Shown one piece after another: positions 24,304 to 41,077 of a stretch of 42,709 nt of DNA. This stretch comes from a virus: positions 1-42,709 of IMG/VR virus record IMGVR_UViG_3300032299_000934; one strand, given 5' to 3'. Position 1 is the stretch's first letter; every line of letters starts with the position of its first letter. The translations under genes and the position numbers were made by a program. Below the pieces are notes generated by a model that was not told the DNA's origin, did no database searches, and was given only the letters and a program-made list of their open reading frames with translations.

Positions 24304-25044
24304 CTACGTTACCGGCGGCTCCCACAAGCGGACAGTGTGGGTGTCGAGGTCGTATTCGCCTGGCCTGAGGATGCGAGCGCAACGGGCCTGGGTGATGGCG
24401 TAGCGCTGATCGAGACCCTTCTTGCCAAAGGCGGCAACGACAGCGGCCCACATCTCCCGTTCAGTCATGCAGCCGGCCAGCGCCTTCTCAGCGGTGACAG
24501 GCCCAAAACCAGGGCAGCCGGGGTAGTTGTCGCTGGTGTCACCCACCAAGGCCTGGCTGTAGAAGGCCAGGTTCGCGTCGTATTCGGACACCTCGATGAC
24601 CTGCCCGTTTCGCAAGTGGTAGCCGGGGAGGGTGAGCATGTCCTTGTCCACCGAAGCGATGACATCGCCCTGCTCGTAAAGGATGCCGAGCACGTCGTCG
24701 CCCTCCACGTCGGGCAGCTCAACCACCTGCCAGCCGCGGGATGGCGCGGCCTGGGCCACCCACTCCTTGAGCTGCCGGTAGCCAGCGGGCTTGCGGTACT
24801 TCTTGCGGTTGGCCTTGTACTTGGGCCAGACGCCATAGCGGAACGAGACGCCAGCAGAGAACACCAGCACCGGCTGGAGGCCTTGGAGGTTGTCGAGGAT
24901 CTCGGCGATGGAGTCCTGGAACAGGGCCTGGGCATCACCATGACGGCAGACGTAGCTCCAGTCGTCCGGGGCCCACTCGGTTTCAAACTCGCACGCTGCA
25001 GCGGCGCGGAACAGGTAGACCTCGGTGTCGATTAGGGCTTTCAC
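24304..25044 (-). CDS. 5'-3' exonuclease, T7 gp6-like (FEN family)
   Basis: A 246-residue nuclease with the acidic residues of the FEN/5'-exonuclease family: Asp6 in ALIDTEVYLF, the LPDVEGDDVLGILYEQ block (about 110-125), SVDKDML (about 130) and VGDTSDNYPGCPGFGPVTAEKAL (about 168-190), the helix-hairpin part that holds DNA. T7 gp6 degrades host DNA and removes RNA primers. Its presence without a phage DNA polymerase is notable. It overlaps the 76-aa gene by 4 bp. Confidence 0.9.
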   Translation of the reverse strand: MKALIDTEVYLFRAAAACEFETEWAPDDWSYVCRHGDAQALFQDSIAEILDNLQGLQPVLVFSAGVSFRYGVWPKYKANRKKYRKPAGYRQLKEWVAQAAPSRGWQVVELPDVEGDDVLGILYEQGDVIASVDKDMLTLPGYHLRNGQVIEVSEYDANLAFYSQALVGDTSDNYPGCPGFGPVTAEKALAGCMTEREMWAAVVAAFGKKGLDQRYAITQARCARILRPGEYDLDTHTVRLWEPPVT

Positions 25045-25271
25045 TCCACCACCTCCGCATCACAACCTGGCCAGCGGTTTTGGCAGTAGAGGATCGCCTT
25101 GCCCCTGCTGGGGGCTGGCAGTGTGATGGTCATCTGAGGCTTGCTTGGGATCTTCACGCGCAGCCGGTACAGCCTGGCCGACTCCTTGGGCTTGGGGCGG
25201 CTAATGCCTGGGCCGATGTTCGGCTCCGGGCCCTCAAATGCGTAGCGCTTTGGTTCGCTCCAGCCCATCAT
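25041..25271 (-). CDS. Unknown small protein (76 aa)
   Basis: The protein starts MMGWSEPKRYAFEG, has a Pro-rich start and a basic middle (KPKESARLYRLRVKIPSK), and ends RWPGCDAEVVE. I do not recognise it; the ending resembles small conserved proteins of cyanophage replication regions. The start overlaps the 55-aa gene stop and its own stop overlaps the exonuclease start, so it belongs to the same coupled string. Confidence 0.6.
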   Translation of the reverse strand: MMGWSEPKRYAFEGPEPNIGPGISRPKPKESARLYRLRVKIPSKPQMTITLPAPSRGKAILYCQNRWPGCDAEVVE

Positions 25272-25435
25272 TCGTGCTCCAGCGCCTGCACATAGCCGTC
25301 CCACCACCGTTCGCTCCACCGTTCGCTGTAGCCCTCCTTCTGCTGCGCGAGTCGCAGCCTCTGCAGTGCGTCTGCTTTCAATCGAACGACAGCTGATCGT
25401 TCGAGGTCGAGCCGGTCGTCTTGGTTGGTGGGCAT
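25268..25435 (-). CDS. Unknown small basic protein (55 aa)
   Basis: The 55-residue frame starts MPTNQDDRLDLERS and continues with a long amphipathic helix ending WWDGYVQALEHE. It overlaps the previous gene by 58 bp in another frame and the next by 4 bp. No Shine-Dalgarno is evident. It looks like a ribbon- or helix-type small DNA-binding protein in composition, but no family is recognised. Confidence 0.5.
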   Translation of the reverse strand: MPTNQDDRLDLERSAVVRLKADALQRLRLAQQKEGYSERWSERWWDGYVQALEHE

Positions 25436-25605
25436 GGCTGGATGTTGCGGGGGTCGTGGATGTTGATGGTCTGTTGATTGCTGCCGCGCACCAGCAGGAC
25501 CATGCAGCTGCGGGTGCGGGTGGTGACCACCTGGCCGCTGCGCCATCCGCCCTGGTAGCGAACGCGCACCGGCTGGTCGATCTCGTAGTGAGTGATCCAG
25601 GTCAA
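25378..25605 (-). CDS. Unknown small beta-rich protein (75 aa)
   Basis: The start is likely a TTG at 25605 that overlaps the TGA of the upstream gene. The N-terminal 55 residues (TWITHYEIDQPVRVRYQGG, RSCMVLLVRGSNQQTINIHD) look like a small SH3-like barrel; the C-terminal 20 residues are polar and overlap the next gene. No ATG is available in frame. I infer a real gene because the frame fills the gap between coupled neighbours and has a folded-protein look. Confidence 0.5.
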   Translation of the reverse strand: MTWITHYEIDQPVRVRYQGGWRSGQVVTTRTRSCMVLLVRGSNQQTINIHDPRNIQPCPPTKTTGSTSNDQLSFD

Positions 25606-25820
25606 AACCAATCCCTCCTGCCCGCGCCCTGGGCGTAGGCATCGAGATCGCGGTGGGTCTTGTCGAAGAACTGCGGGTGCTCGGTGATGAACCCAGGCGT
25701 GGGCAGCACCGGCTCGCCCTTCTTGCTGGTGCGGTTGAACTGGTCGATCGACCAGAAGCCCTGCAGTAGACCCTTTTCGAGGATCCCCTGCAGTGCGGCG
25801 CCGCTGATCAGGGGCTGCAT
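25602..25820 (-). CDS. Unknown small protein (72 aa)
   Basis: The ATG at 25820 has a perfect AGGAGG with correct spacing inside the end of the upstream gene, so the start is well supported. The protein begins [17 protein letters not shown] and contains FWSIDQFNRTSKKGEP and TPGFITEHPQFFDKTHR. Similar short proteins are common in cyanobacterial phages and plasmids as far as I recall, with no known function. It overlaps the upstream gene by 13 bp and the next by 4 bp. Confidence 0.65.
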   Translation of the reverse strand: MQPLISGAALQGILEKGLLQGFWSIDQFNRTSKKGEPVLPTPGFITEHPQFFDKTHRDLDAYAQGAGRRDWF

Positions 25821-26326
25821 GTCGCCTCCTCCTTGACCCGCTCCAGATAGGCCCGCCACTGCTCGTCGGTGAGGCCCTGGGCCTCGTCGGCAGGCGGCAG
25901 CGCCGGCCGCTGGCTGCCCTGCACCAGTGCATAGGCCTGGGCATTGGCCGGGTCGGGCGCGGCATGGATGGAGACGGGCACCTCGGGCAGCAGCGCCATC
26001 TGGGCCGGCTTGAACTGCACGAACTTGGGCAGGCCCTCCTTCGGGCCCCAGCTGCGATTCGCCAGTCCGCCCTCGGTCCGGTAGAGCGGTGCCATCAGCT
26101 CAGCCCAAACCGGGAAGCGGTGGAAGGCCTGGGGATCGGTGGATTGAATCCACTTCTCGGCGGCCCACATCAGCTGCGGGTCGTTCACCTCGGGGAACTC
26201 AGCGGTGAAGCTGTGGAGCTTGAGCCGGCAGACATGGGGGCTCCACCGATCGGCCTCCTTGAGCCGCAGATGGCCGGCCACCATTTCGGCAACCGCCAGG
26301 AAGGTCTCGGGGGTCAGGCCGGCCAT
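25808..26326 (-). CDS. Unknown protein in replication region (172 aa)
   Basis: The protein starts [20 protein letters not shown] and carries [28 protein letters not shown] and [25 protein letters not shown]. The C-terminal third is Pro/Ala-rich with a final [16 protein letters not shown] helix. The helical N-terminal domain plus flexible tail would suit a replisome-loading or adaptor protein, but this is a guess from layout. GGAGGAG precedes the ATG. It overlaps the zinc-ribbon gene by 13 bp. Confidence 0.65.
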
Positions 26327-26883
26327 GGCTCCTCCAGCGCGGCGAGCATGGCGGGGTCCTTGGGCATGGGCCGGCGGCTGATCTGCGACAACCCGAGCGG
26401 CTTGTGGGCGCCCAGGTAGTCCTCCTTGAGAGCCATCCAGCCGTTCTCCACCCCAGCGGTGCAGAGCTCCAGCTGGCGGGCTGGCGGGAGCGCACCCACC
26501 CGGCTCGCGCTGGACAGCCAGGCGGCCTCGGTCCAGGTGGCCCGGCTGCCGTGCTTGCTGCGGCGGCTTTCGCGCCACCACTGCAGCAGCAGGGGGGCGG
26601 CGTCGGCGGTGATGCTGAAGCCATCGGGCACCTCCTCCGGCATGAACCGAGCAGCGCGGGCGGCCTTGGCTGGCGCCTTGGCGGGTTGCTGGGGCTCCGG
26701 CACCACCCGCAGGGCAGGCGCATCGAGGTAGCCCTTGGCGCCTGGGTTGTTAACGCACACCCGCTCCATGGTTGGGAAGCGGTGGGCGCATTTCATGCAC
26801 CGCCGGTAACGCAGGTCGCCGTCCTCGCGGGGCCTGGTCTCCAACACGCGGGTCACGTCGTGGTCGCAGTTGGGGCACCTCAT
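26314..26883 (-). CDS. NrdR-like zinc-ribbon protein
   Basis: A 189-residue protein. Residues 1-43 are a zinc ribbon of the NrdR type: [10 protein letters not shown], then [20 protein letters not shown] and an ERV. The four Cys are at 3, 6, 29 and 32. In NrdR an ATP-cone follows; here it is replaced by a Pro/Ala linker (50-75) and a helical domain (about 85-189) with [18 protein letters not shown] and [20 protein letters not shown]. It could bind DNA as a regulator or as a replication factor. No ribonucleotide reductase gene is in the window. TGATG overlap with the upstream gene. Confidence 0.7.
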
Positions 26884-27065
26884 CGAGTCACCTCCTGCGG
26901 GGCCCATTCGCCGCACCAATCCACATGATCCGTGCTTGGCCATTTCGCCTCGCCCCTCAGGCCAGGGATCGGGGCCGGAGCGTGGCGATGGCACTCATAG
27001 TTCATGTAATAACGGCAGTTACCGCACCTCTGCTCACTTTGCGGTGGATAGTTGTGGTTGCTCAT
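26880..27065 (-). CDS. Small four-cysteine zinc-binding protein (61 aa)
   Basis: A 61-residue protein with [18 protein letters not shown] and [15 protein letters not shown]. The four Cys (C-x2-C, C, C) plus His suggest one zinc site. This 'C.NCry...C.r.aP..wP.v...dwCGe' pattern occurs in small phage and bacterial proteins of unknown role. It lies between the coiled-coil protein and the NrdR-like protein with overlaps of 4 bp at both ends. Confidence 0.68.
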
Positions 27066-28027
27066 TTGAGTAGCTCCCAGTTGATTCGGACTTGCAGGCC
27101 CGGATGTAGTCGGCCAGTGACTATCGCCTCCGCTACTTGGTGGCGATTCATGCCGCCCATGCTTTTTTCGAGCACTTCAATGGCTCGCCGTGCTTGGGTC
27201 GCAAAGGTCCCAACCTCCACAACGAAAGTGCCGTGCTCCATTTCGGCGGGAGGTTCAGCCTTGGCAGGGACTGCCGCGACCGCTGGCGGTCGACTGGCGG
27301 CGGCCTCCGCTTGAGCCGCCTTGGCTTCAGCGGCGGCGGCCCTGGCCTCGGCTGCTGCGATGGCATCTGCTGCTGCCTGGGCGGCAAGCTCGTCGGCTCG
27401 CTCCTGGGCTTTCCGCTCCAGATCCTGTTGCCGCTCGCGCTCCTCCCTGTCCTGCTGCTCCTTGCGGAGACGCTCAAGCTCGCGCTCCTGCTCCTCTTTC
27501 CGCTCGGCCTGCTGCAGGGCCTGCTGCAAGCCTTGGCGCGAGGTCACCACCGCGGCGGCAACCCTCTCGGCGAACTCCTCCAGTCCGTCCAAGGTGAATT
27601 GGTCGAGAACATCGAGCCTGCCCGCGATCTCCCGCGAGTCCACTCCGAACTGGAGCTCGCCAAGGCGCACGACTGAATCAAGCACCTTCTGATGCGCAGC
27701 GACTCGCTCAGCCTCGCGGCAGGCAATGGCCTCGATCTGCTCCTGGTGGGGCTGGATCAGCTCGTCCACCTGGCCGCTGAGATCCTTGGCCTGCTCGTCC
27801 ACCCGCTTGCCGTAGGCCAGGGCGTAGGCCTTTGCCTCCTTGCGTGCGGACTCGACCCGAGCGCGGAGCTTGCGCAACTGAAAGATGTAGCTCCGGGCGG
27901 CCTTGTCGCCCTCTTTTGTTTCGTACTCAAAGGATGGCACGGCCTCCTTTCTGGCCTGCTCGATGTCATCCAGCAGCACCTGGTACTGCGTGATGACAAT
28001 CGGGTTAGCAACTGCAGTGAGCGTCAT
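27062..28027 (-). CDS. Coiled-coil protein of recombination/replication region (321 aa)
   Basis: Residues 1-130 carry DDIEQARKEAVPSFEYETKEGDKAARSYIFQLRKLRARVE, a pattern seen in phage proteins encoded beside single-strand annealing or replication genes (DUF1351-like by memory). Residues about 150-255 are a long charged coiled coil rich in Glu/Gln/Arg/Ala. A compact C-terminal domain follows ([36 protein letters not shown]). AAGGTGATC precedes the ATG within the end of the resolvase gene (23-bp overlap). It occupies the place where T7-like phages carry primase-helicase, but no nucleotide-binding motif is present. Confidence 0.65.
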   Translation of the reverse strand: MTLTAVANPIVITQYQVLLDDIEQARKEAVPSFEYETKEGDKAARSYIFQLRKLRARVESARKEAKAYALAYGKRVDEQAKDLSGQVDELIQPHQEQIEAIACREAERVAAHQKVLDSVVRLGELQFGVDSREIAGRLDVLDQFTLDGLEEFAERVAAAVVTSRQGLQQALQQAERKEEQERELERLRKEQQDREERERQQDLERKAQERADELAAQAAADAIAAAEARAAAAEAKAAQAEAAASRPPAVAAVPAKAEPPAEMEHGTFVVEVGTFATQARRAIEVLEKSMGGMNRHQVAEAIVTGRLHPGLQVRINWELLK

Positions 28028-28385
28028 CAAAGATCACCTTGAGAAGAATGGATTGTTTTTTCTTGGGAGCCTGCTCCCATTCGGCTTCGAGCCTTTTCAG
28101 AATCGTCACCCGGTCATCGACCCAGAGGATGCCTTTGCCGGCATCCATCACCGCACCGCAGAGGTTGTCCAGATCGCTGGTCCCAGGCCCCCGGAACGTG
28201 AACTGCACAGCGAGCAGCTGACCTTTATCGAGCGGCGGGATTGTCCACCACTCGCCGAGGATTGCTCGGCATTGCGTCATCCAGTCCCGATACTTCTTGC
28301 TGTTGTAAGCATGGCCAGAGAAGCGGGGCCGCTCCTTGGGTTGGAGCGGCAGCGGCAGCTCAAAGTCAGCTGATCGCAGGCTCAT
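28005..28385 (-). CDS. RusA-like Holliday junction resolvase/endonuclease
   Basis: A 126-residue protein with the RusA family pattern: LPLPLQPKERPR at the N-terminus (strand), then FRGPGTSDLDNLCGAVMDA and ILWVDDRVTIL. These carry the conserved Asp residues of the metal site (the D-x-D-N motif near 75-80 and Asp near 95). It lies directly after SSB, where T7 has gp3 endonuclease I. It therefore probably resolves recombination intermediates before packaging. TGATG overlap with SSB. Confidence 0.85.
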   Translation of the reverse strand: MSLRSADFELPLPLQPKERPRFSGHAYNSKKYRDWMTQCRAILGEWWTIPPLDKGQLLAVQFTFRGPGTSDLDNLCGAVMDAGKGILWVDDRVTILKRLEAEWEQAPKKKQSILLKVIFDDAHCSC

Positions 28386-29035
28386 CAGAAGGGGACTTCC
28401 TCCTCGGACAGCATCTGCTGCGCGGCCTGGCGCTGCAGCTGCTGGCTTGGCGTGAGCTGTTCATCGCCACCGCTGAACGCATCGGCGGAGACGTCCACCA
28501 CGTAGCCGTTCTCCACCCCAAACGCATCGCTGGGATCGCGGGCTTCATACGGCACCAGGTCGAGCACCTGGACCGCTTCAAGGCTCAGGCTGATGCCCTT
28601 CTTGCCGAACTTGTCCTCCCAGCCGTAGCAGGAGAACGCCACCTTCACCTTGCTGCCGTTGCCGATCAGGGTGTCGGCCGGCCAGGGGTTCTTGTGGCTG
28701 TCGTAGACGGCCGGGGCCTGCAGCACCTTGCCCTTCTTGGTGGTCTCGTTCTTGCGGAAGCGGAACACCAGCACGCCGGTGTTCCTGCCCTCCTTGTCGG
28801 TTTGCTCCTTGAACGGCCAGGCGTTCTTACTGGGCTTGGCGCCGTCGCCATTGATCCGGGTGAACTCGGCCTCAATGGTTTGCATCAGCCCCAGCACATC
28901 CTTGCTGTTCTGGGGTCCGCCCCACTCGATCGACCACTGCCGAGGCTTGTCCTCCTCGAAGCGGTCCTCCTCAGGCTCAAACACCTTGGCCCAGTAGGCA
29001 TCGCCCACGGGGGTCACGATCAGTTCACGCGCCAT
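28385..29035 (-). CDS. Single-stranded DNA-binding protein, T7 gp2.5-like
   Basis: A 216-residue OB-fold protein with ARELIVTPVGDAYWAKVFEP, WSIEWGGPQNSKDVLGLM, VLVFRFRKNET and IGNGSKVKVAFSCYGWED. It ends in an acidic tail with terminal Phe (SEEEVPF), the partner-binding tail of phage and bacterial SSBs. I chose the ATG at 29035, 5 bp after a dyad A copy, because upstream residues look non-coding. No Shine-Dalgarno is seen. It follows RNA polymerase, as in T7-like cyanophages. Confidence 0.88.
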   Translation of the reverse strand: MARELIVTPVGDAYWAKVFEPEEDRFEEDKPRQWSIEWGGPQNSKDVLGLMQTIEAEFTRINGDGAKPSKNAWPFKEQTDKEGRNTGVLVFRFRKNETTKKGKVLQAPAVYDSHKNPWPADTLIGNGSKVKVAFSCYGWEDKFGKKGISLSLEAVQVLDLVPYEARDPSDAFGVENGYVVDVSADAFSGGDEQLTPSQQLQRQAAQQMLSEEEVPF

Positions 29036-29040
29036 TTGTG

Positions 29041-29054
29041 CTGCATGGATGCAG
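29041..29054 (-). promoter_or_regulatory. Dyad A copy upstream of SSB
   Basis: CTGCAT-GG-ATGCAG is a perfect palindrome with two central bases; the minus strand is preceded by TC. It lies 5 bp before the SSB ATG. The same 14-bp sequence occurs on the other strand at 24284-24297. Confidence 0.6.
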
Positions 29055-29075
29055 AGTTGCTGCAGCAGCATGGCA

Positions 29076-29105
29076 CCTAGGAGGCACCTAGGCAATACCC
29101 CTAGG
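29076..29105. promoter_or_regulatory. CCTAGG cluster with palindrome B between RNAP and SSB
   Basis: CCTAGG occurs three times in 30 bp (29076, 29087, 29100). Positions 29078-29090 match TAGG-N5-CCTA with AGGCA as spacer, the same palindrome as at 33110-33122 and 36930-36953. The RNA polymerase TAG stop is part of the last copy. Confidence 0.5.
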
Positions 29106-31500
29106 AGAACAGATAGGGGTTCCCGCCGATCTCGCCCACCTTCAGCGTCCCCACCATCGGCGGCGCCGGCAGCCTCGCCCCAGCCGTGGCCTGGATTTCG
29201 GCCGTGATCTCAGCCAGCCAGTCCGGCCGGTAGAGCTCCCCGGTGCGCCACAGCAACGTGCTGTGCAGCCACTCGGCATCGCAGGGCGGCACCGCGAAGC
29301 AGTCGTGGTTAGGCAGCACCGTGACCCCTTTGTCTGCACCATCGCAGACCATTGCCCACACCAAGGCAGCGTCAAAGCTGTGGATGAAGTTGGCGGTGAT
29401 CGACCGGCCGGTCTCCACGGCGCTGAGCTTCCCCGGTGGTGGCGCATCGAGCAGGGTCTGCCAGCGGCGGGTGCCATGCAGCAGCGACTTGATGCCGCTG
29501 CTGGCGGTGAGCTCCTTGCCCAGCTGGATGGGCAGCCCCATCGGTGTCGTCCACCGCAGCGGCTGGTTCTTGGCACTGCAGCAGCGCACCACCGCCCGCA
29601 GCCAGGCCTGAAATGCCACTGCGCCAGCCAGCCGGGCGCCAACGGCCAGGCCAAACTTCCGCGCCAGGTAGCGGGCGGGTATCAGCCGCTCGAGCTCCAG
29701 CACCCCCAGCGACACGGTCCCCTCAGCGTCATCCAGCAGGGCCACCAGCTGCTCGGTCACCCCCAGCAGCTTCGCTCCGTAGACCGTGCTCATCACCGGC
29801 ACCTTGGCCATGGCCCGGCTGATGCCGCGCTCCAGCCACCAGCCCGCCAGCCGCTGCTCCTTGGCATCCCCAGCCTCCAGATCAGAGCGCAGCAGCAGCA
29901 TCACCTCCTGGGCCAGCTCGGTGTAGAGGTCGTGGCGGGTCGTGCCGACCAGGTTGCAGGCCCGGGCCAGGCCTCGATCCCGCAGCAGGGCGCCGATGAT
30001 CCCAGGGCCTGAGCTGGTCTGATCCAACCGCACCGGCTGATGGATGGACTGGTTGGGGTCCTCGATCCACCGCTGCAGCGCCCGGCAACATGCCAGGAAC
30101 TGCCACGGCTCCTTGGCATCACGCCACAGATGCACCCGCTCCAGGGGTTCCTCGGCCGCAGCCAACATGCGCTCCATCTGATCCCTGCCGAACTGCAGCC
30201 GGTCGGCCCAGCTGCCCTTGATCCCCCAGTGGATCGCCGCTGCCTTGAGGATCCAGTCGGCGGCCCGGTCATCGCACGGCTTGGCGTTGGCGATCAGCAC
30301 CTGAGCCTTTTCGTGGTCGGGGCCCTGGTGGGTGGTGAGCCGGTTCGCTGTGTAGACCCGGCCGCGGATGTCCATGCACCAGCTGAACCAGAGCGGCTCG
30401 CCGGCCAGCTGCTCGGCCTGGCGGATGGATCCCTCGATGCGGCTGCGGGCTTCCCGGCCCTCGATCCGGTCGCGGTGGAACGCCTGCTCCTGCTGATGCC
30501 AGCGGGCCATGGCCTCCTTGCCCACCAGCTCAACCGGCTTGGGCGGGGCCTCGGCCGGATCGCGCAGCAGCGGGAACAGGCCGCGCAGGTTCGCATCCCA
30601 GGCGATCCGCTGGTTCCCCACCATCCACGGATCCAGCATCAGCCCCTGGTCCTGGAGGGTGTTCACCACCTTCAGCGCCGGCTGCAGGGCCTGGGTGGTG
30701 AGGTAGTCGATCGGATGCCCCTTGCGGCTGCGCACCAGCAGCTCGGTGTTGCTCAGGTGCCCGCCGCCCGTCATCCCCTCCCACGGCCTGGGCGGGGTGA
30801 GCATGGGCAGCTTGCGAGCCTTGGCGGGTGTCGGCGGGTGGGCGGCGATGATCTCGGCCACCACGGGCGCCGGCTCAAGTTGCAGGCCGCGGCGCCCTGG
30901 CTTGGTCGTCGTTCGCAGTAGCTCGGTTTCGGTGGTGATGATCTCCAGCAGGAAGGCACCCACCTGGAAGCGATCGGCGGCACACCAGGGCTCCAGCTGG
31001 ATGCGCAGCTGCTCCAGCCGCGCCTTCGATGTCAGCCCCTTGCCGTGGCGGCGCCGGGCGATGCGGAGCAGGTCTTGGCCGCGGTCCTCGATCGGGAGCG
31101 CCCTGATCTCTGCCTCGATCGCTGCGCCGATGGCAGATGCCATGGCCCGGTGGCTGGCGGGCTTGCTGATCCGATCGAGCACCACCCCCAGGGCGACCGC
31201 AGCGATGGAGCGGGGCCCCTTCTCTCCCAGCTGGAACAGCAGCCACATGCCGGCGTGATACGGGCCGGCCACCTCGTCGCGGTTCAGCGCCTTGCCCAGC
31301 TTGTGCTCCAGCGCCAGCGCCACACGCTCGCCGTGGGCGTGGAACAGGGCCCGCCCGTATTCGGTGGCGCTCTCCTTCTCCTGCTGCTTGAGCTTGGCCC
31401 GGGCGATCCGTGAGCGGTTGGCGGCGGCCTCCTGGGCTGCCATTTCCAGATGCAGCTGACGCTCCTCCGAGGGGGTGGACGAATTGCAGGATGCAGACAA
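29101..31500 (-). CDS. DNA-directed RNA polymerase, T7-like single subunit
   Basis: A protein of about 799 residues with the catalytic motifs of the T7 family. Motif A is PVRLDQTSSGPGIIGALLRD (Asp near 490). Motif B is SRAMAKVPVMSTVYGAKLLG (Lys and Tyr-Gly near 560). Motif C is NFIHSFDAALVWAM (Asp near 707). MDIRGRVYTAN is also conserved. T7 RNAP is 883 aa; the N-terminal promoter-binding region is shorter here. The start is uncertain: TTG 31500 or ATG 31443. A TTG start would place dyad A (N3 variant) at codons 2-6. It should transcribe middle and late genes. Confidence 0.93.
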   Translation of the reverse strand: MSASCNSSTPSEERQLHLEMAAQEAAANRSRIARAKLKQQEKESATEYGRALFHAHGERVALALEHKLGKALNRDEVAGPYHAGMWLLFQLGEKGPRSIAAVALGVVLDRISKPASHRAMASAIGAAIEAEIRALPIEDRGQDLLRIARRRHGKGLTSKARLEQLRIQLEPWCAADRFQVGAFLLEIITTETELLRTTTKPGRRGLQLEPAPVVAEIIAAHPPTPAKARKLPMLTPPRPWEGMTGGGHLSNTELLVRSRKGHPIDYLTTQALQPALKVVNTLQDQGLMLDPWMVGNQRIAWDANLRGLFPLLRDPAEAPPKPVELVGKEAMARWHQQEQAFHRDRIEGREARSRIEGSIRQAEQLAGEPLWFSWCMDIRGRVYTANRLTTHQGPDHEKAQVLIANAKPCDDRAADWILKAAAIHWGIKGSWADRLQFGRDQMERMLAAAEEPLERVHLWRDAKEPWQFLACCRALQRWIEDPNQSIHQPVRLDQTSSGPGIIGALLRDRGLARACNLVGTTRHDLYTELAQEVMLLLRSDLEAGDAKEQRLAGWWLERGISRAMAKVPVMSTVYGAKLLGVTEQLVALLDDAEGTVSLGVLELERLIPARYLARKFGLAVGARLAGAVAFQAWLRAVVRCCSAKNQPLRWTTPMGLPIQLGKELTASSGIKSLLHGTRRWQTLLDAPPPGKLSAVETGRSITANFIHSFDAALVWAMVCDGADKGVTVLPNHDCFAVPPCDAEWLHSTLLWRTGELYRPDWLAEITAEIQATAGARLPAPPMVGTLKVGEIGGNPYLFS
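31484..31496 (-). promoter_or_regulatory. Dyad A (3-base spacer) at the RNA polymerase gene start; also a GGATGCA arm-type site
   Basis: The minus strand reads TCTGCA-TCC-TGCAA. It begins right after the TTG at 31500, or 40 bp before ATG 31443. On the plus strand it contains GGATGCA, the 7-mer repeated five times around the attP core. Confidence 0.45.
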
Positions 31501-31579
31501 GGTGCAGCATCTGTAGCGGGATGCACTTATTACACCCCACCCCCGCAGAGTTGATCAGTGGGCGTCTGACCGCAGTTCA

Positions 31580-31659
31580 GGCCGGACATCTGCAGGGATG
31601 CAGAACTGGAAAACGGATTATGAGTCCGCTGCTTTCACCAGATAGCTAGACCCCCGGCC
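31580..31659 (-). other. tRNA-like sequence (CAU anticodon arm) holding the attP core
   Basis: On the minus strand, 80 bases fold partly like a tRNA. They show a 7-bp acceptor-like stem (31653-31659 with 31580-31586, one G-U), a GCT/AGC D-stem, and an anticodon arm with loop CTCATAA. A hairpin CTGCA-TCCC-TGCAG stands in the T-arm position. The T-loop consensus is absent and four extra bases lie before the D-stem, so I do not call a functional tRNA. Bases 31612-31630 match the anticodon arm of tRNA-Met/Ile(CAU), the likely integration core. Confidence 0.6.
31590..31603 (-). promoter_or_regulatory. Dyad A copy in the attP region
   Basis: The minus strand reads TCTGCA-TCCC-TGCAG, a perfect copy. 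It overlaps one GGATGCA arm-type site and lies 90 bp upstream of the RNA polymerase TTG. Confidence 0.5.
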
Positions 31660-31768: not shown

Positions 31769-32755
31769 TCAGCCCTCAAGCGCTGCCACGCAGGACGCCA
31801 GGGCATCGGTGTGCAGGTGGAGGTAGCGCTGCACGCTCTGGAGGGATGTCCAGCCGCCGAACGCCATCAGCTGGTGCAGCGGGATCCCCTTGGTCGCCAG
31901 CTTGCTTGCGCAGGTGTGGCGGGTGCAGTGGATCGTGAGGGCCGGGTCGGTGATGCCCAATCCCTCCTTGGCGCACTCAAACAACCACTTGAACTGCCGG
32001 TAGCTGTAGGGGTAGACCCGATGGCCCGGCACGGCCGGCAGGTGGGGCAGCAGGGCATCAAGGGCCCGGCGGGTGAGCGGCACGCTGCGGGCGCGGTTGG
32101 CCTTGGTCTCCCAGAAGGTGACGCGGGCCCGATCCACATCCACATCAGCCCCACGCAGCCGCTCGGCTTCGCCCCACCTGCAGCAGGTCTCGAGAAGGAA
32201 CACGAAAAGGTCGGCCGCGGCGGGTTGGCCTGCGGCATGGAACCGATCGCAGAACGCTGCGATCTCAGCATCCGAGAAGATCCGGTCCTTGGTGTTGCGG
32301 TTGGTCAGCTGCCGGGGCAGGGGCGGGATGGCAGCCAGGTGCCCATGCAGCACGGCATCGCTGAACATGGCCCGCAGGCAGGACACCTTGGCGTTGACGG
32401 TGCCGGGGCGGTTGCCGCCGTGTAGCAGCAACTGCCGCCACTCCTCCACGGCCGGGGCGGTGATGCCGCCCAGCTGGGTGAGCGGGCCGAAGTGATCCAC
32501 GGCGGCCTGGCTGTAGATGGCAGCGGTCCGCTCGAAGGCCTTGCCGGCCCAGCGGATGCGCAGGGAGAGGGCCCGGGCGTCGGTGATGGTGATGCCCTGA
32601 GGCTCGCCACTGCTGCGGGCTACCAGCAGTTCCAGCAGCTGGCGCTTGGCCTCGATGGCCTCGGTCTTGGTCTTGCGCTTGGCAGTGCGGCGGGTGCCGT
32701 TAATGCAGACATCGGCAATCCAGCCGTCCGCCGTGCGGCGAACTGATCCGGTCAT
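31769..32755 (-). CDS. int: Tyrosine recombinase (integrase)
   Basis: A 328-residue integrase. The N-terminal strand region (VRRTADGWIADVCINGTRRTAKRKTKTEA) is an arm-binding-type domain. Residues 75-150 form the core-binding domain (SAM-like). The catalytic set is visible: Arg193 in CCRWGEAERL, Lys218, His276 and Arg279 in HCTRHT, Trp302 in GGWTSLQS and the nucleophile Tyr311 in RYLHLHT. It appears intact. Its ATG follows an (ACC)5 leader. It lies just upstream of RNA polymerase, as in integrase-bearing T7-like cyanophages, with the attP candidate between the two. Confidence 0.95.
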   Translation of the reverse strand: MTGSVRRTADGWIADVCINGTRRTAKRKTKTEAIEAKRQLLELLVARSSGEPQGITITDARALSLRIRWAGKAFERTAAIYSQAAVDHFGPLTQLGGITAPAVEEWRQLLLHGGNRPGTVNAKVSCLRAMFSDAVLHGHLAAIPPLPRQLTNRNTKDRIFSDAEIAAFCDRFHAAGQPAAADLFVFLLETCCRWGEAERLRGADVDVDRARVTFWETKANRARSVPLTRRALDALLPHLPAVPGHRVYPYSYRQFKWLFECAKEGLGITDPALTIHCTRHTCASKLATKGIPLHQLMAFGGWTSLQSVQRYLHLHTDALASCVAALEG

Positions 32756-32767
32756 GGTGGTTCTGTT

Positions 32768-32782
32768 GGTGGTGGTGGTGGT
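32768..32782 (-). repeat. (ACC)5 leader before integrase
   Basis: On the minus strand ACACC repeats precede the ATGACC start of integrase by 12 bp. No Shine-Dalgarno is present. It is one of five such (ACC)n leaders in the window. Confidence 0.6.
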
Positions 32783-34364: not shown

Positions 34365-35333
34365 TCAGGCCTCCTCGATCGCTTCGGGGGCGATCAGATC
34401 GGCGGCCTTGCGGGCATCGCTGAGCACCTGGAACAGGACCCGGGGCCCGCCGTCCTTGAGCAGCTGGGCCCAGTGCTGGAGATAGGCGGCATGGTTCTCG
34501 AGCTGGCAGCCGATCTGCAGCCGGTAGCAGATCAGCACCGCTGACAGCTCGGCCACCAGTTCCTCACGGGCGTAGGACTCGCTGCCGAACGATCCCCCCA
34601 TGGCCCGGGCAAGCCGGTCCCTATGGCCGGTGCTGTGGCTCTGCTCGTGGGCCCACGTCGCCGCCATTGCCTCCCGGGTGGTGAAGGCCTCGGCGGCCGG
34701 CATGCTGATCTGATCGAGCGTGGGGCTGTAGCAGGCGCGGGCCCCACCCCAGCGGGTCTCTACGGGCCAGGCCTCTAGGACTGCTTCGGCAGCCTCAAGC
34801 CGGGCCGCGGCGGGCTTCGCTTCGCCTTGTCCGATCGCTTCGGCGATCGCTGCAGCCAGGGCGGCAGCGGTCTCCTCGTCGTGCCCCTGGAGGTCGGCCG
34901 CATTGAACACGGCGACTGGCTTAAAGCTCACCCAGGCGGCGACCAGCTGGGAGCCATCCGGCCCGGTGACGGGCTGGCCGTTGGCGTCGGTCTGCTCGCG
35001 CTTGTTCAGCTGAGGCCGCACGATGCGGCAGGCCTTGGACCCTTTGCGGGGCCACCAGCCGCGGGCCTTGGCTTCGGCTGCACCGAGCCACAGGGGCAAG
35101 GTGTGGCCTCGCATCATTGAGCCCAGCTCCAGCAAGATTGGATTTGAGCCGCGGTAACAATGACCGCTTAGGAGGTTGCGGTGCTCGCCCTGGTGGCCGG
35201 CCCACTCGCGGCGCCATGGCGGCAGCTCGGCGGATTCCATCAGGGCCACCAGATCAGCGGTGAGGAGCTCCTCAGAGCTGGGGCCGTCGTACTTGCGGGC
35301 CTTGGGCTTGGTCTTGGTTGCGGTCTTGGTCAT
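34365..35333 (-). CDS. ArdC-like antirestriction protein
   Basis: A 322-residue protein. The N-terminal half (residues about 15-150) fits the ArdC/TraC-type ssDNA-binding domain: LLTADLVALMESAELPPWRREW, NLLSGHCYRGSNPILLELG, WGLGAAEAKARGWW-like and KACRIVRPQ. The C-terminal half carries the zinc metallopeptidase motif ATWAHEQSHSTGHRDRL (about 225-240), with downstream SYAREELVAELSAVL. ArdC proteins protect incoming DNA from restriction. An early-gene position supports a role at entry. The start is coupled by ATGA to the upstream gene; an (ACC)8 repeat precedes it. Confidence 0.88.
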   Translation of the reverse strand: MTKTATKTKPKARKYDGPSSEELLTADLVALMESAELPPWRREWAGHQGEHRNLLSGHCYRGSNPILLELGSMMRGHTLPLWLGAAEAKARGWWPRKGSKACRIVRPQLNKREQTDANGQPVTGPDGSQLVAAWVSFKPVAVFNAADLQGHDEETAAALAAAIAEAIGQGEAKPAAARLEAAEAVLEAWPVETRWGGARACYSPTLDQISMPAAEAFTTREAMAATWAHEQSHSTGHRDRLARAMGGSFGSESYAREELVAELSAVLICYRLQIGCQLENHAAYLQHWAQLLKDGGPRVLFQVLSDARKAADLIAPEAIEEA

Positions 35334-35512
35334 TGGTCGGTGGTGGTGGTGGTGGTGGTGGTGTGGTCGTTGAACAGCGGGCCCAGGGCGCCGCCATCGA
35401 GGGCCAGCCAGCCCTGTTGCGGGCCGGCCAGTTGGAGCGGTTGCGGGCTGTAGTCGCGGGGTTGTGCGCCGGGGACCGCTAGGGCCCCCTGCCGGTATCG
35501 GTGCTGTTTCAT
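35330..35512 (-). CDS. Small protein with poly-threonine tail (60 aa)
   Basis: It starts MKQHRYRQGALAVPGAQPRD, is Gln/Pro/Leu-rich, and ends LFNDH, eight Thr, DQ. The Thr run is encoded by the (ACC)8 repeat that also precedes the ArdC start. Start and stop overlap neighbours (TGATG and ATGA), which argues for real translation. No family recognised. The repeat could vary in length between phages. Confidence 0.5.
   Translation of the reverse strand: MKQHRYRQGALAVPGAQPRDYSPQPLQLAGPQQGWLALDGGALGPLFNDHTTTTTTTTDQ
35339..35362 (-). repeat. (ACC)8 microsatellite
   Basis: Eight perfect triplets, read as ACC on the minus strand, followed by GACCA and the ArdC ATGACC. It encodes a Thr run in the upstream gene. 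The longest of five (ACC)n tracts. Confidence 0.85.
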
Positions 35513-35700: not shown

Positions 35701-35774
35701 CGGTCGGTGGTGGTGGTGGTGGTGTGCTGCTGAGGGCAGCAGGGAGGGAGCACCAGGCCCCCTCCGGGCTGTCG
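35701..35774 (-). promoter_or_regulatory. Duplicated intergenic cassette: hairpin plus (ACC)6 leader
   Basis: Minus strand: CCCGGAGGG-N-CTCCCTCCCTGCTG, then CTGCTG-CCCT-CAGCAG, CAGCACACC and (ACC)n GACCG before ATGACC. It matches the cassette at 33911-33980 in order and wording. The stems are competing (GGAGGG/CCCTCC against CTGCTG/CAGCAG), as in an attenuator. Confidence 0.55.
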
Positions 35775-36148: not shown

Positions 36149-36175
36149 CGGTTGTCGAGGTTCGGTGGTGGTGGT

Positions 36176-37004: not shown

Positions 37005-37400
37005 ATGAGACCCAGAGAGGATGGTTCCGAGAACTTCGTCATGCTGTTCACCGACGAGCTGGCTTCCTGTGCCATCGGTGCCATGGCCGACAAGCGCCTG
37101 CTGCCCCGCGACCTGGCTGTCCTGACTGGCCTGATCGCCAACGTCAACTGGCGCAGCGGTCGGGTCAACGTGACCCAGCGGGCCCTGGCCCAGCAGATGA
37201 ACATCCTTGAGTCGAACTGCTGCACCTCCATCAAGCGCCTGCGACAGGAGAAGCTGATCGCTCGCGCTGTGGACAAGACCTCCGGCCACACCTACTTCCT
37301 GATCAACCCCCGACTGGCATCAGTGGGCAGCACGCAACGCCGCGGCCACCTGTTCCAGCAGTTCGATGAGGCCATAGCGATCCCCAAGGAGCCGGAGTAA
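37005..37400 (+). CDS. RepL-like winged-helix protein (131 aa)
   Basis: FVMLFTDELASCAIGAMADKRLLPRDLAVLTGLIANVNWRSG leads into a winged helix (RVNVTQRALAQQMNILESNCCTSIKRLRQEKLIARAV) and a wing ending in GHTYFLINPRLASVG. The 'YFLNP.l..VG' ending is typical of RepL/RepA-type plasmid initiators and related phage regulators. It is the first rightward gene, behind two palindrome B sites, so it may regulate transcription or start replication. The start may be ATG 37005 or ATG 37041. Confidence 0.65.
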   Translation: MRPREDGSENFVMLFTDELASCAIGAMADKRLLPRDLAVLTGLIANVNWRSGRVNVTQRALAQQMNILESNCCTSIKRLRQEKLIARAVDKTSGHTYFLINPRLASVGSTQRRGHLFQQFDEAIAIPKEPE

Positions 37401-39907: not shown

Positions 39908-39921
39908 TTGCATGGGTGCAG
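39908..39921 (-). promoter_or_regulatory. Dyad A variant before the small terminase
   Basis: The minus strand reads TCTGCA-CCCA-TGCAA (one mismatch), preceded by ACG as in the copy before the capsid gene, 2 bp before ATG 39905. It fills the gap between two divergent genes. Confidence 0.5.
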
Positions 39922-39937
39922 ACGTCTTGCCTTGATG

Positions 39938-41077
39938 ATGGCACCGAACAGCGTTCGCTTCACCGATGAGCGCTGGCTGGAGTTCTGGGAGCACTACAAG
40001 GGTTTGCCGCATCAGCGTGATGCGGTGATCAAGCTCGGCGAGCACATCCGCCAGGCGGACCGCGGCTTGCTTGTTGAGACTGCTGAGTGGGTCGAGGACT
40101 TCAGGACAGACTGGGGCTGGGCGGCGATCCGCGAGCTGGCCGCCAAGGCCGGCGCCAAGCACCCGGACCTGGTGGCTGCGCAGTGGGCCTTGGAGTCTGG
40201 CTGGGGCGGCGCGATGAGCGGCCGCAACAACCCTTTTGGGCTGAAGGGTGAGGGCACGGTCAGGCGCACCACCGAGGTGGTCAACGGCAAGGAGGTGCCG
40301 ATCGAAGCGGAGTTCAGGGACTTCCCTTCGATCAAGGCTGCTGTCGAGCACCTGGTCAGCCGGTGGTACATGGACTACACGGCTCCGGGTGGCAAGGAGT
40401 ATCGAGGTGTCAACCGCGCTGGTAGCCGCGACGAGGCCGCACGGCTGCTGGTGAAGGAGGGCTACGCCGACGACCCCGCCTACGCCAAGAAGCTGATCAA
40501 GCTGATGGACGACAACGCCCCAGCGCGGCCGGCCGCGGCCGGCGGCCTGGATCCCAGAGGCAGCGAGGAGGCCGGGCTGGTGGGGCCCAAGATGAAGGCG
40601 CCGGTGAAGTCAGGCGACAGCTACCTGCTGGTGAACGACCGCGACCAGGACATGGAGGCCTACGACCACACCGGCAAGCTGCTGTGGAAGATCCCGTGCC
40701 TGGCGCGAGGCCAGGGGCCGACCAACGAGTGGCGGAAGCGCAACACGGACACCCCGCCGGGCCTCTACAAGATCGGCAAGGTCTACGCCGATTACGAGCA
40801 GAACCCCAAGCCGCCGCAGTCGGACACGGCCGAGTCCTACGGGTGGTACTCCTTCGACATGGAGGGCCTGGAAGGGCAGGAGTCCAGCAACGGCCGGAGC
40901 GGCATCATGCTGCACGGCGGCGGGACTGCCTGCGGCTGGCCGGGCGCCTGGGCGCCAAGGCAGGTTCTACATCCCACTTTGGGATGCGTGCGCATCCACA
41001 ACACCGACCTGCGGGACAAGGTGCTGCCCCTGGTCCGCAAGGGGATCGTCTACATCGGGGTGTTTCAGGAGCGCTGA
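39938..41077 (+). CDS. Two-domain endolysin: glucosaminidase-type plus L,D-transpeptidase (YkuD)
   Basis: About 379 residues. Residues 60-180 look like a glucosaminidase-type (GH73/LytD) domain: AAQWALESGWGGAMSGRNNP with Glu86, then FGLKGEG and AEFRDFPSIKAAVEHLVSRW. A linker follows (190-225). Residues 230-379 form a YkuD-type domain: SYLLVNDRDQDMEAYDHTGKLLWKIPC, TPPGLYKIGK, MLHGGG with His326 and HPTLGCVRIHN with the catalytic Cys350. Both active-site sets look complete. The first domain would cut glycan strands. What the second does in lysis is open: cutting or exchanging cross-links. Confidence 0.85.
   Translation: MAPNSVRFTDERWLEFWEHYKGLPHQRDAVIKLGEHIRQADRGLLVETAEWVEDFRTDWGWAAIRELAAKAGAKHPDLVAAQWALESGWGGAMSGRNNPFGLKGEGTVRRTTEVVNGKEVPIEAEFRDFPSIKAAVEHLVSRWYMDYTAPGGKEYRGVNRAGSRDEAARLLVKEGYADDPAYAKKLIKLMDDNAPARPAAAGGLDPRGSEEAGLVGPKMKAPVKSGDSYLLVNDRDQDMEAYDHTGKLLWKIPCLARGQGPTNEWRKRNTDTPPGLYKIGKVYADYEQNPKPPQSDTAESYGWYSFDMEGLEGQESSNGRSGIMLHGGGTACGWPGAWAPRQVLHPTLGCVRIHNTDLRDKVLPLVRKGIVYIGVFQER

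Follow-up and report, generated by a model that had tools for sequence, protein, structure and literature searches.

The replication block and its missing enzymes

The window analysed here is the single virus record IMGVR_UViG_3300032299_000934 of IMG/VR, taken over its whole length of 42,709 bases. It carries T7-like virion and packaging genes together with an integrase, and our concern is the block of early genes on its minus strand, in which no DNA polymerase, primase or helicase is detectable. The order of the block is integrase, RNA polymerase, gp2.5-type single-stranded DNA-binding protein (SSB), RusA, a coiled coil, a CxxC protein and a 189-residue Zn-ribbon protein, then a 172-residue protein, a protein of about 72 residues, small genes and, at the end, a 5′–3′ exonuclease.

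The initial annotation, made from the letters alone, had placed RNA polymerase, SSB, resolvase and exonuclease in T7-like order, and PHROG and Pfam matches bear this out. It had also claimed that the interval from resolvase to exonuclease is devoid of polymerase, primase and helicase: profile searches of the ten block proteins agree, matching no such family in Pfam or PHROG, with only a weak AAA_23 match (E 0.034) on the 321-residue coiled coil. The same holds for its claim that none lies elsewhere. The family A DNA polymerase profile PF00476 and the DnaB-type helicase profile PF03796, both of which do match control genomes, find nothing in the window, and in a Pfam scan of 36 window open reading frames (ORFs) neither a polymerase nor a helicase is among the 25 families listed out of 47. 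A six-frame scan for Walker A motifs in frames of at least 60 residues gave five matches, in a tail-fibre-type gene, a 1126-residue gene of the tail region and three short frames; no candidate helicase gene is among them, and none of the cassette proteins described below has the motif. Sequence missing at the window ends, which the annotation had itself raised, is ruled out as the cause of the gap by complete relatives with the same gap: the 44,687-bp record of locus L005, which has 127-bp identical ends and is syntenic with the window, the isolate S-SRP02 (42,143 bp, circular) and the fosmid phage MedDCM-OCT-S38-C3 match neither PF00476 nor PF03796. Since no polymerase, primase or helicase of the phage's own can be detected, host enzymes are most likely used, in agreement with the initial annotation's view that host replication is recruited.

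Existing labels need correcting here. The exonuclease orthologues of S-SRP02 and MedDCM-OCT-S37-C6 are recorded as “DNA polymerase I”; that of S-SRP02 (L011:22389-23129, MW822601) is 68% identical to the exonuclease of the window, and the S-SRP02 record holds no DNA_pol_A domain. The available text of the S-SRP02 paper (Zhang et al., 2022, PMC8790148) gives the exonuclease the name “DNA polymerase I”, counts DNA polymerase among its tree genes, and contains the words helicase and primase zero times.

How far the gap extends was surveyed from the RNA polymerase outward. The search of viral contigs gave ten loci, and among named phages S-SRP02 matched at 46.5% identity and S38-C3, S37-C6 and MedDCM-OCT-S31-C1 at 36–37%; the remaining 36 of the 40 rows shown, out of 2519 records, do not exceed 27.3%. 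In a set of 37 records, comprising the window and the records behind the RNA polymerase loci and later loci, chosen mostly for length, PF00476 is matched in none and PF03796 (DnaB_C) in two, only S37-C6 and S31-C1. In both, a gp4-type gene (Toprim plus DnaB_C) lies between a small Zn-ribbon gene and the exonuclease, exactly where the window has its cassette. A gp4 search of viral contigs, from which 80 of 482 relatives were kept as loci, yielded a near clade of 16 loci at 65–85% identity, the distant gp4 genes standing at 31–34%. The RNA polymerase of the group was seen in 12 of these 16 loci (14 of 18 including S31-C1 and S37-C6), and a DNA polymerase in none of the 16 near-clade records, 15 of which are fragments under 19 kb and one 42.7 kb; as a positive control, 10 of 12 longer records with a distant gp4 do have one. 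Most simply, the sequences point to loss of the polymerase no later than the common ancestor of both clades, so that the gp4-bearing sister clade would represent an intermediate state.

DNA polymerase loss alone is already published. According to the available part of Cai et al. (2022, PMC9860041), the 18 MPP-C cyanopodoviruses isolated there have no identifiable DNA polymerase gene; they resemble the window as T7-like cyanophages lacking such a gene and differ from it in keeping a DNA primase/helicase, a core gene in that group. The “distinct replication strategy” first proposed is therefore a fair description of the gp4 loss and not of the polymerase loss. Among the literature matches listed, mainly open-access papers, no title or abstract treats the missing gp4, the cassette or the SSB tip in this lineage; two of the listed papers (PMC11092137 and PMC10575957) each mention the lack of a DNA polymerase once, and passages of PMC11288001 say nothing on the subject. 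The three fosmid phages S38-C3, S37-C6 and S31-C1 are assigned by their records to group G9, for which the available text of Mizuno et al. (2013, PMC3861242) states that the host could not be assigned, the words helicase and primase being absent from it.

The cassette, gp4 and the winged-helix gene

We define the cassette as the genes of the 189-residue Zn-ribbon protein, the 172-residue protein and the protein of about 72 residues. One comparison is among the 14 nearest relatives chosen by RNA polymerase alone (the ten viral-contig loci and the top four named-phage records): 11 have the cassette without gp4, three have gp4 without the cassette, none has both and none has neither. In the wider collection, counted after removal of nine duplicate views, only the partner's absence is informative because most loci were found by one gene or the other. 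There, gp4 is found in none of 84 cassette loci (tblastn with two gp4s), and the 172- and 72-residue genes in none of 83 gp4 loci (18 near and 65 distant, many of them short). The 172-residue gene is present in all 84 cassette loci and the 72-residue gene in 82, the two others (L088 and L089) ending close by. The Zn-ribbon and 172-residue genes adjoin, lying within 60 bases of each other in 76 of the 84 loci with a largest gap of 662, and the 172-residue gene is kept across RNA polymerase identities down to about 36%. Judged by gene content, in the clade of the window the cassette replaces gp4 at the same place.

The locus counts are not independent evolutionary events. In an RNA polymerase tree of 55 rows, the gp4 clade is supported at 100/100 and the cassette clade forms one group at 86/66, with one outgroup; with a single clade of each kind, the exchange of gp4 and cassette need have happened only once. 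S-SRP02 (MW822601) shares with the window the order RNA polymerase, SSB, RusA, Zn ribbon, 172, 72 and exonuclease, as well as the integrase and a winged-helix gene before that of the large terminase (TerL), and differs in having a clamp-like gene. S38-C3 (AP013548, Stopalavirus) likewise has the cassette and the winged helix without polymerase or gp4, although its RNA polymerase is only 36% identical. In the sister clade, S31-C1 and S37-C6 (Nohivirus, Oinezvirus) have the same block, a small Zn-ribbon gene after RusA and no DNA polymerase A; unlike the window, they keep the T7 gp4 and lack both the cassette and a winged helix of the window's family. Separately, a 42.5-kb record binned as a Sphingomonadaceae metagenome-assembled genome (MAG) (L097, RFPL01000019.1) belongs to the phages of this group, which makes the “Sphingomonadaceae” labels on best hits of S-SRP02 look like mis-binning.

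A second gene follows the cassette. The 131-residue winged-helix gene lies before the large terminase gene, and a profile of 12 members finds it in 24 of 25 cassette records and in none of four gp4-clade and four distant gp4 records; as the profile was built on sequences of the cassette clade, it may have missed a diverged counterpart among the gp4-bearing phages. S37-C6 has another protein, of 141 residues, before its terminase gene. The best families of the winged helix all fall below their own cut-offs: PF05732 RepL (E 4.7e-4; 20.1 bits against a cut-off of 20.3), MarR_2 (E 6.3e-4) and DnaD_N (E 1.3e-3). A sliding-clamp-like partial protein (phrog_947) occurs in five of the 37 phage records, S-SRP02 (L011:10903-11607) and four others (G008, G013, G020 and G027), and in these members would fit a clamp-using host polymerase.

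The initial annotation had proposed the 172-, 189- and 321-residue proteins as recruiters of host replication. The first two stand as good candidates on their distribution, being found in 84/84 cassette loci and, as a pair, in 0/83 gp4 loci; the 321-residue coiled coil is rejected as a core replication protein, occurring in only eight of the 84. Missing from that list were the 72-residue protein, the winged-helix gene and the host-type SSB tail.

The 189-residue protein is composed of an NrdR-type Zn ribbon (residues 1–43) and a conserved three-helix C-terminal domain (about 95–147). Its profile matches the NrdR chain 7p37 (E 4.5e-9), and its model superposes on NrdR 9fxk with Z 6.6 and a root-mean-square deviation (rmsd) of 1.6 over 43 residues, in a fold search that covered residues 1–47 and barely touched the C-terminal domain. 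The NrdR repressor consists of a Zn ribbon plus an ATP-cone; no ATP-cone family is among the Pfam matches of the 189-residue protein up to E 1, so that it has, of the NrdR features, the Zn ribbon alone. A hint of an initiator comes from phrog_678 (“replication initiation O-like”), matched weakly by 12 of 58 family members (best E 0.0016). In three of the ten members shown singly the match pairs the C-terminal domain with the C-terminal end of the profile; phrog_6451 (E 0.27), a primosomal family containing the C-terminal part of DnaT, is matched as well by one of the ten. This hint is weak because direct profile comparisons with lambda O and DnaT are negative (given below), and identity with either C-terminus is not supported; in lambda O itself, the match to phrog_678 is confined to the N-terminal part. 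PF17948 is matched in none of the 37 records, and the families listed for 57 members of the 172-residue alignment do not include phrog_678. Two further leads were set aside: a match to a Bordetella phage (E 0.6), whose family proved unrelated, and phrog_678 matches in 121 of 292 genomes from the phylum to which the Cyanobium MAG G035 belongs, mostly in the N-terminal half of the profile.

The AlphaFold2 model of the 172-residue protein (predicted local distance difference test, pLDDT, of 85) is helical, its C-terminal part being less certain. Its neighbours in BFVD named “G39P, N-terminal” and “replisome organizer” are weak (E 2.4, 3.2 and 3.9), the G39P match (E 2.4) having an rmsd of 2.8 over 74 columns at rank 11 of 45. 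G39P is not among the eight Pfam families listed for 57 members of the 172-residue family, and homology to it is unsupported, the likeness in helix order being only an impression from the model. A comparison with lambda P gave nothing. A profile match to SPP1 gene 38 (P 0.0079) was one of nine comparisons, over 29 columns, and is not used; nor do we claim a clamp-binding motif, QLALLP, picked out by eye, in which Q and P are invariant in A3 and the rest is not. For the 72-residue protein, two relatives have no PHROG family and a third matches one at E 0.17.

The SSB tail and other features of the window

The acidic tail of T7-type SSBs works for the replisome of the phage itself, while bacterial SSBs use their C-terminal tip to dock proteins of replication and repair. 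The SSB of the window is a gp2.5-type protein, the bacterial SSB domain PF00436 not being among its Pfam matches up to E 1, and it shares the tip SEEEVPF with a host Cyanobium SSB. In the two Cyanobium MAG genomes with relatives in their bins, the main SSBs end GGGEPSDEEVPF and GGGEPSEEEVPF, and a second SSB ends GDDDIPF; four Cyanobium SSB loci were read, and L252, which has no readable SSB frame, was left out. In L007 and L008, near relatives of the window, the phage SSB reads FGLGGDPSEEEVPF.

The tip [DE]x0-1[IVLM]PF is found in 69 of the 77 cassette loci with an SSB (45 distinct last-eight tails), and PF in 72; the eight other tails are three EEAPF, one each of EEIPY, EEVPW, EELPS and EEVPFS, and one unlike these. 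By comparison, the near gp4 clade has a bacterial-type tip in 1/16 and PF in 5/16, and the distant gp4 set has the tip in 0/6, an SSB match being missing in 7 of 84 cassette loci, 2 of 18 near gp4 loci and 59 of 65 distant ones. The Prochlorococcus phage P-SSP7, whose record includes a gp4, has an SSB ending PVPDDDF. MPP-C phages were sought for an independent comparison of SSB tails, and the 60 rows listed of 2851 held no record recognisable as MPP-C. The entropies of the last five tail positions are 1.02, 1.23, 1.95, 0.25 and 0.58 bits, against 2.65–3.62 for the preceding 25 (59 distinct 30-residue tails), which means a conserved tip on a variable linker. Of the signs that host proteins may be served by the phage SSB, this bacterial-type tip is, we believe, the most direct.

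Two alleles of the SSB gene, about 43% and 95% identical to that of the window, occur among the window, L001, L002, L004 and L005, whose RNA polymerases are 83–98% identical. With divergent SSB alleles beside closely related RNA polymerases, the SSB gene looks exchanged by recombination; the PF tip is present on both alleles.

Table 1. Position and supporting matches of the early block, the integrase and the winged-helix gene in the window.
Feature	Coordinates	Strand	Evidence
5′–3′ exonuclease, Pol I N-terminal-domain type, block end	24304..25044	−	phrog_107 E 2.4e-54; PF02739 E 1.4e-12
Small conserved protein before exonuclease, start codon uncertain	25041..25319	−	tblastn matches in many cassette loci; best family matches E 0.03 or weaker
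Protein of about 72 residues, start codon inferred, third cassette gene	25602..25820	−	
172-residue protein, second cassette gene, candidate helicase recruiter/loader	25808..26326	−	AlphaFold2 pLDDT 85, helical
189-residue protein, NrdR-type Zn ribbon, first cassette gene, candidate primosome/initiator protein	26314..26883	−	PF22811 E 3.4e-10
61-residue CxxC protein, accessory	26880..27065	−	45/84 cassette loci
321-residue coiled-coil protein, accessory	27062..28027	−	phrog_1376 E 5.9e-18; 8/84 cassette loci
RusA-type Holliday junction resolvase	28005..28385	−	phrog_140 E 1.3e-14; PF05866 E 2.2e-7
gp2.5-type SSB, bacterial-SSB-type tip SEEEVPF encoded at 28388-28408	28385..29035	−	phrog_112 E 8.2e-20
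Single-subunit T7-type RNA polymerase	29101..31500	−	phrog_414 E 3.1e-124; PF00940 E 3.4e-46
Tyrosine integrase	31769..32755	−	PF00589 E 6.1e-20
131-residue winged-helix protein, candidate origin-binding initiator or plain regulator	37005..37400	+	weak family matches

The probable starts are the ATG at 29035 for the SSB and position 26883 for the Zn-ribbon protein. The exonuclease is present in 72 of the 84 cassette loci, the remaining 12 not having been examined singly. The T7 character of the virion and packaging genes is clear from window ORFs matching the T7 terminase RNase H (PF22530, E 4.6e-34), T7 tail fibre (PF03906, E 1.9e-27), head-tail adaptor (phrog_449, E 2.9e-138), nozzle (PF25675, E 1.5e-219) and Gp10A-like (E 2.9e-28) families.

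Several further features were noted. An ArdC-like antirestriction protein with a zincin domain is encoded at 34365-35333 (PF18818, E 1.1e-36; PF08401, E 8.8e-16), and several relatives have one. A likely lysis protein lies at 39908-41077 on the plus strand (glucosaminidase, E 2.3e-20; L,D-transpeptidase YkuD, E 2.2e-7); the lysis families were matched in an ORF scan without the member being named, and this frame was assigned as the most likely by its sequence. On the minus strand, (ACC)4-8 tracts at 32768-32782, 35339-35362, 35706-35723 and 36164-36175 stand about 5 to 20 bases upstream of early-gene starts (integrase, the ArdC-like gene and two small genes), four in the window against a mean of 0.01 over 100 base shuffles; L006 has five, L007 three, S-SRP02 two and S38-C3 one, the last not before an evident start. 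They are possibly a leader or translation element. Finally, between integrase and RNA polymerase (about 31560-31640) a stretch resembling the CAU-anticodon arm of a tRNA was seen by eye, a possible attachment site; ARAGORN finds no whole tRNA there.

Probable replication by host enzymes and its alternatives

On this basis, we consider it probable that the cyanophage lineage around S-SRP02 keeps the T7 frame with the host replisome in place of the T7 replisome. In such a scheme, the winged-helix protein, the Zn-ribbon protein or both would mark the phage origin; the 172-residue protein, together with the 189- and 72-residue ones, would bring the host DnaB helicase to it; host DnaG would prime; and host DNA polymerase III (possibly Pol I) would copy the phage DNA. 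The phage SSB would dock host replication proteins by a tip copying that of the host SSB, transcripts of the phage RNA polymerase may supply primers, the exonuclease would remove primers, and RusA would resolve junctions. The absence of the polymerase, the swap of gp4 for the cassette, the association with the winged helix and the SSB tail are read from sequence, while the recruitment steps we infer, the roles given to the cassette proteins following from position, mutual exclusion and conservation. That the exchange came about in two steps is a tentative account, about which we are close to evenly divided: the polymerase would have been lost, and gp4 would then have given way to an initiator/helicase-recruiting cassette and a winged-helix origin protein, with the SSB becoming a mimic of the host SSB.

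A possible working likeness is the initiator and loader of the Bacillus phage SPP1 (genes 38, 39 and G40P), in which G40P functions as the helicase. An initiator gene followed by a loader gene is the order seen in phages using DnaB-type helicases (SPP1, phiV10 and pAEv1818). Unlike the window, SPP1 has its own helicase gene, G40P, and comparisons of the cassette with SPP1-type proteins brought out no sequence homology. In SPP1 a DnaB-type helicase and host Pol III are brought to the phage origin (described in part in the available text of PMC9860041).

Several observations weigh against the host-replisome reading. No recognised loader or initiator is present in the cassette, and the homology tests are weak or negative: the C-terminal domain of the 189-residue protein is matched in score by 192 of 200 shuffled profiles against the lambda O C-terminus and by 127 of 200 against that of DnaT, the 172-residue profile lies within its null against eight G39P-family proteins (33 of 200), and the 172-residue model has no significant match in a PDB fold search. 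The winged helix has a MarR protein as its best PDB match (E 6.1e-4) and may be no more than a regulator. The window lacks the clamp-like protein, which in S-SRP02 matches a RusA-labelled family besides phrog_947. The distant control for the SSB tail is small, with an SSB match in six of 65 loci, and the cassette clade is one clade of moderate support, so that the associations rest on few evolutionary events. Lastly, the host of the window itself is inferred.

The main rival is that host DNA polymerase I is recruited in place of Pol III: transcripts would prime, Pol I would copy by strand displacement assisted by the phage's Pol I-type 5′–3′ exonuclease and SSB, and helicase recruitment would not be needed. 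It draws on the retention of just that exonuclease and of the phage's own RNA polymerase, and host Pol I is one of the three options, with host Pol III and an unknown polymerase, given for MPP-C in the available part of Cai et al. (PMC9860041). Yet it leaves no role for a cassette that stands in the place of gp4 and never beside it, or for the clamp-like gene of some members, and we think it unlikely.

Slightly less likely still is a regulatory or counter-defence role for the cassette, as an island that filled the site after gp4 loss, with no phage loader needed and replication either initiated in plasmid fashion by the winged-helix protein alone or driven by transcription. The negative loader comparisons speak for such an island, NrdR-type Zn ribbons do occur in transcription repressors, and small Zn-ribbon genes also precede gp4 in S31-C1 and S37-C6; an accessory island, however, is hardly kept as the 172- and 72-residue genes are (84/84 and 82/84 loci).

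An improbable explanation is that the replisome is merely unrecognised, one or more of the uncharacterised proteins being an extremely diverged or new type of polymerase, primase or helicase. Primases can have Zn ribbons, and beyond the Zn ribbon the cassette proteins match no known fold (the 189-residue C-terminal domain having been barely covered), but proteins of about 72 to 189 residues without Walker A, of which the 172-residue one is predicted to be small and helical, are poor candidates. Least likely, and already largely refuted, is that the window is a fragment or satellite served by replication genes from elsewhere: no end repeat was found in it, and such IMG/VR records are often fragments, but it has head, tail and packaging genes, complete relatives show the same gap, and the isolate S-SRP02 has a burst size estimated at 50 on its host (available text of PMC8790148).

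If host enzymes do copy these phages, the question is the one that the available text of Cai et al. leaves for MPP-C, namely which host polymerase does so. A marker gene also needs correcting, since what is called “DNA polymerase” in S-SRP02 encodes an exonuclease; a census of cyanopodoviruses based on DNA polymerase genes would overlook this lineage of fresh and marine waters. In textbooks, T7 stands for the phage that supplies a minimal replisome of its own; a natural series of phages with polymerase and gp4, with gp4 only and with neither would show that replisome being dismantled under an unchanged frame of transcription and virion genes. The lineage also names candidate proteins that may take over the work of the replisome, and the exchange of the SSB tip would be a simple molecular hook open to test.

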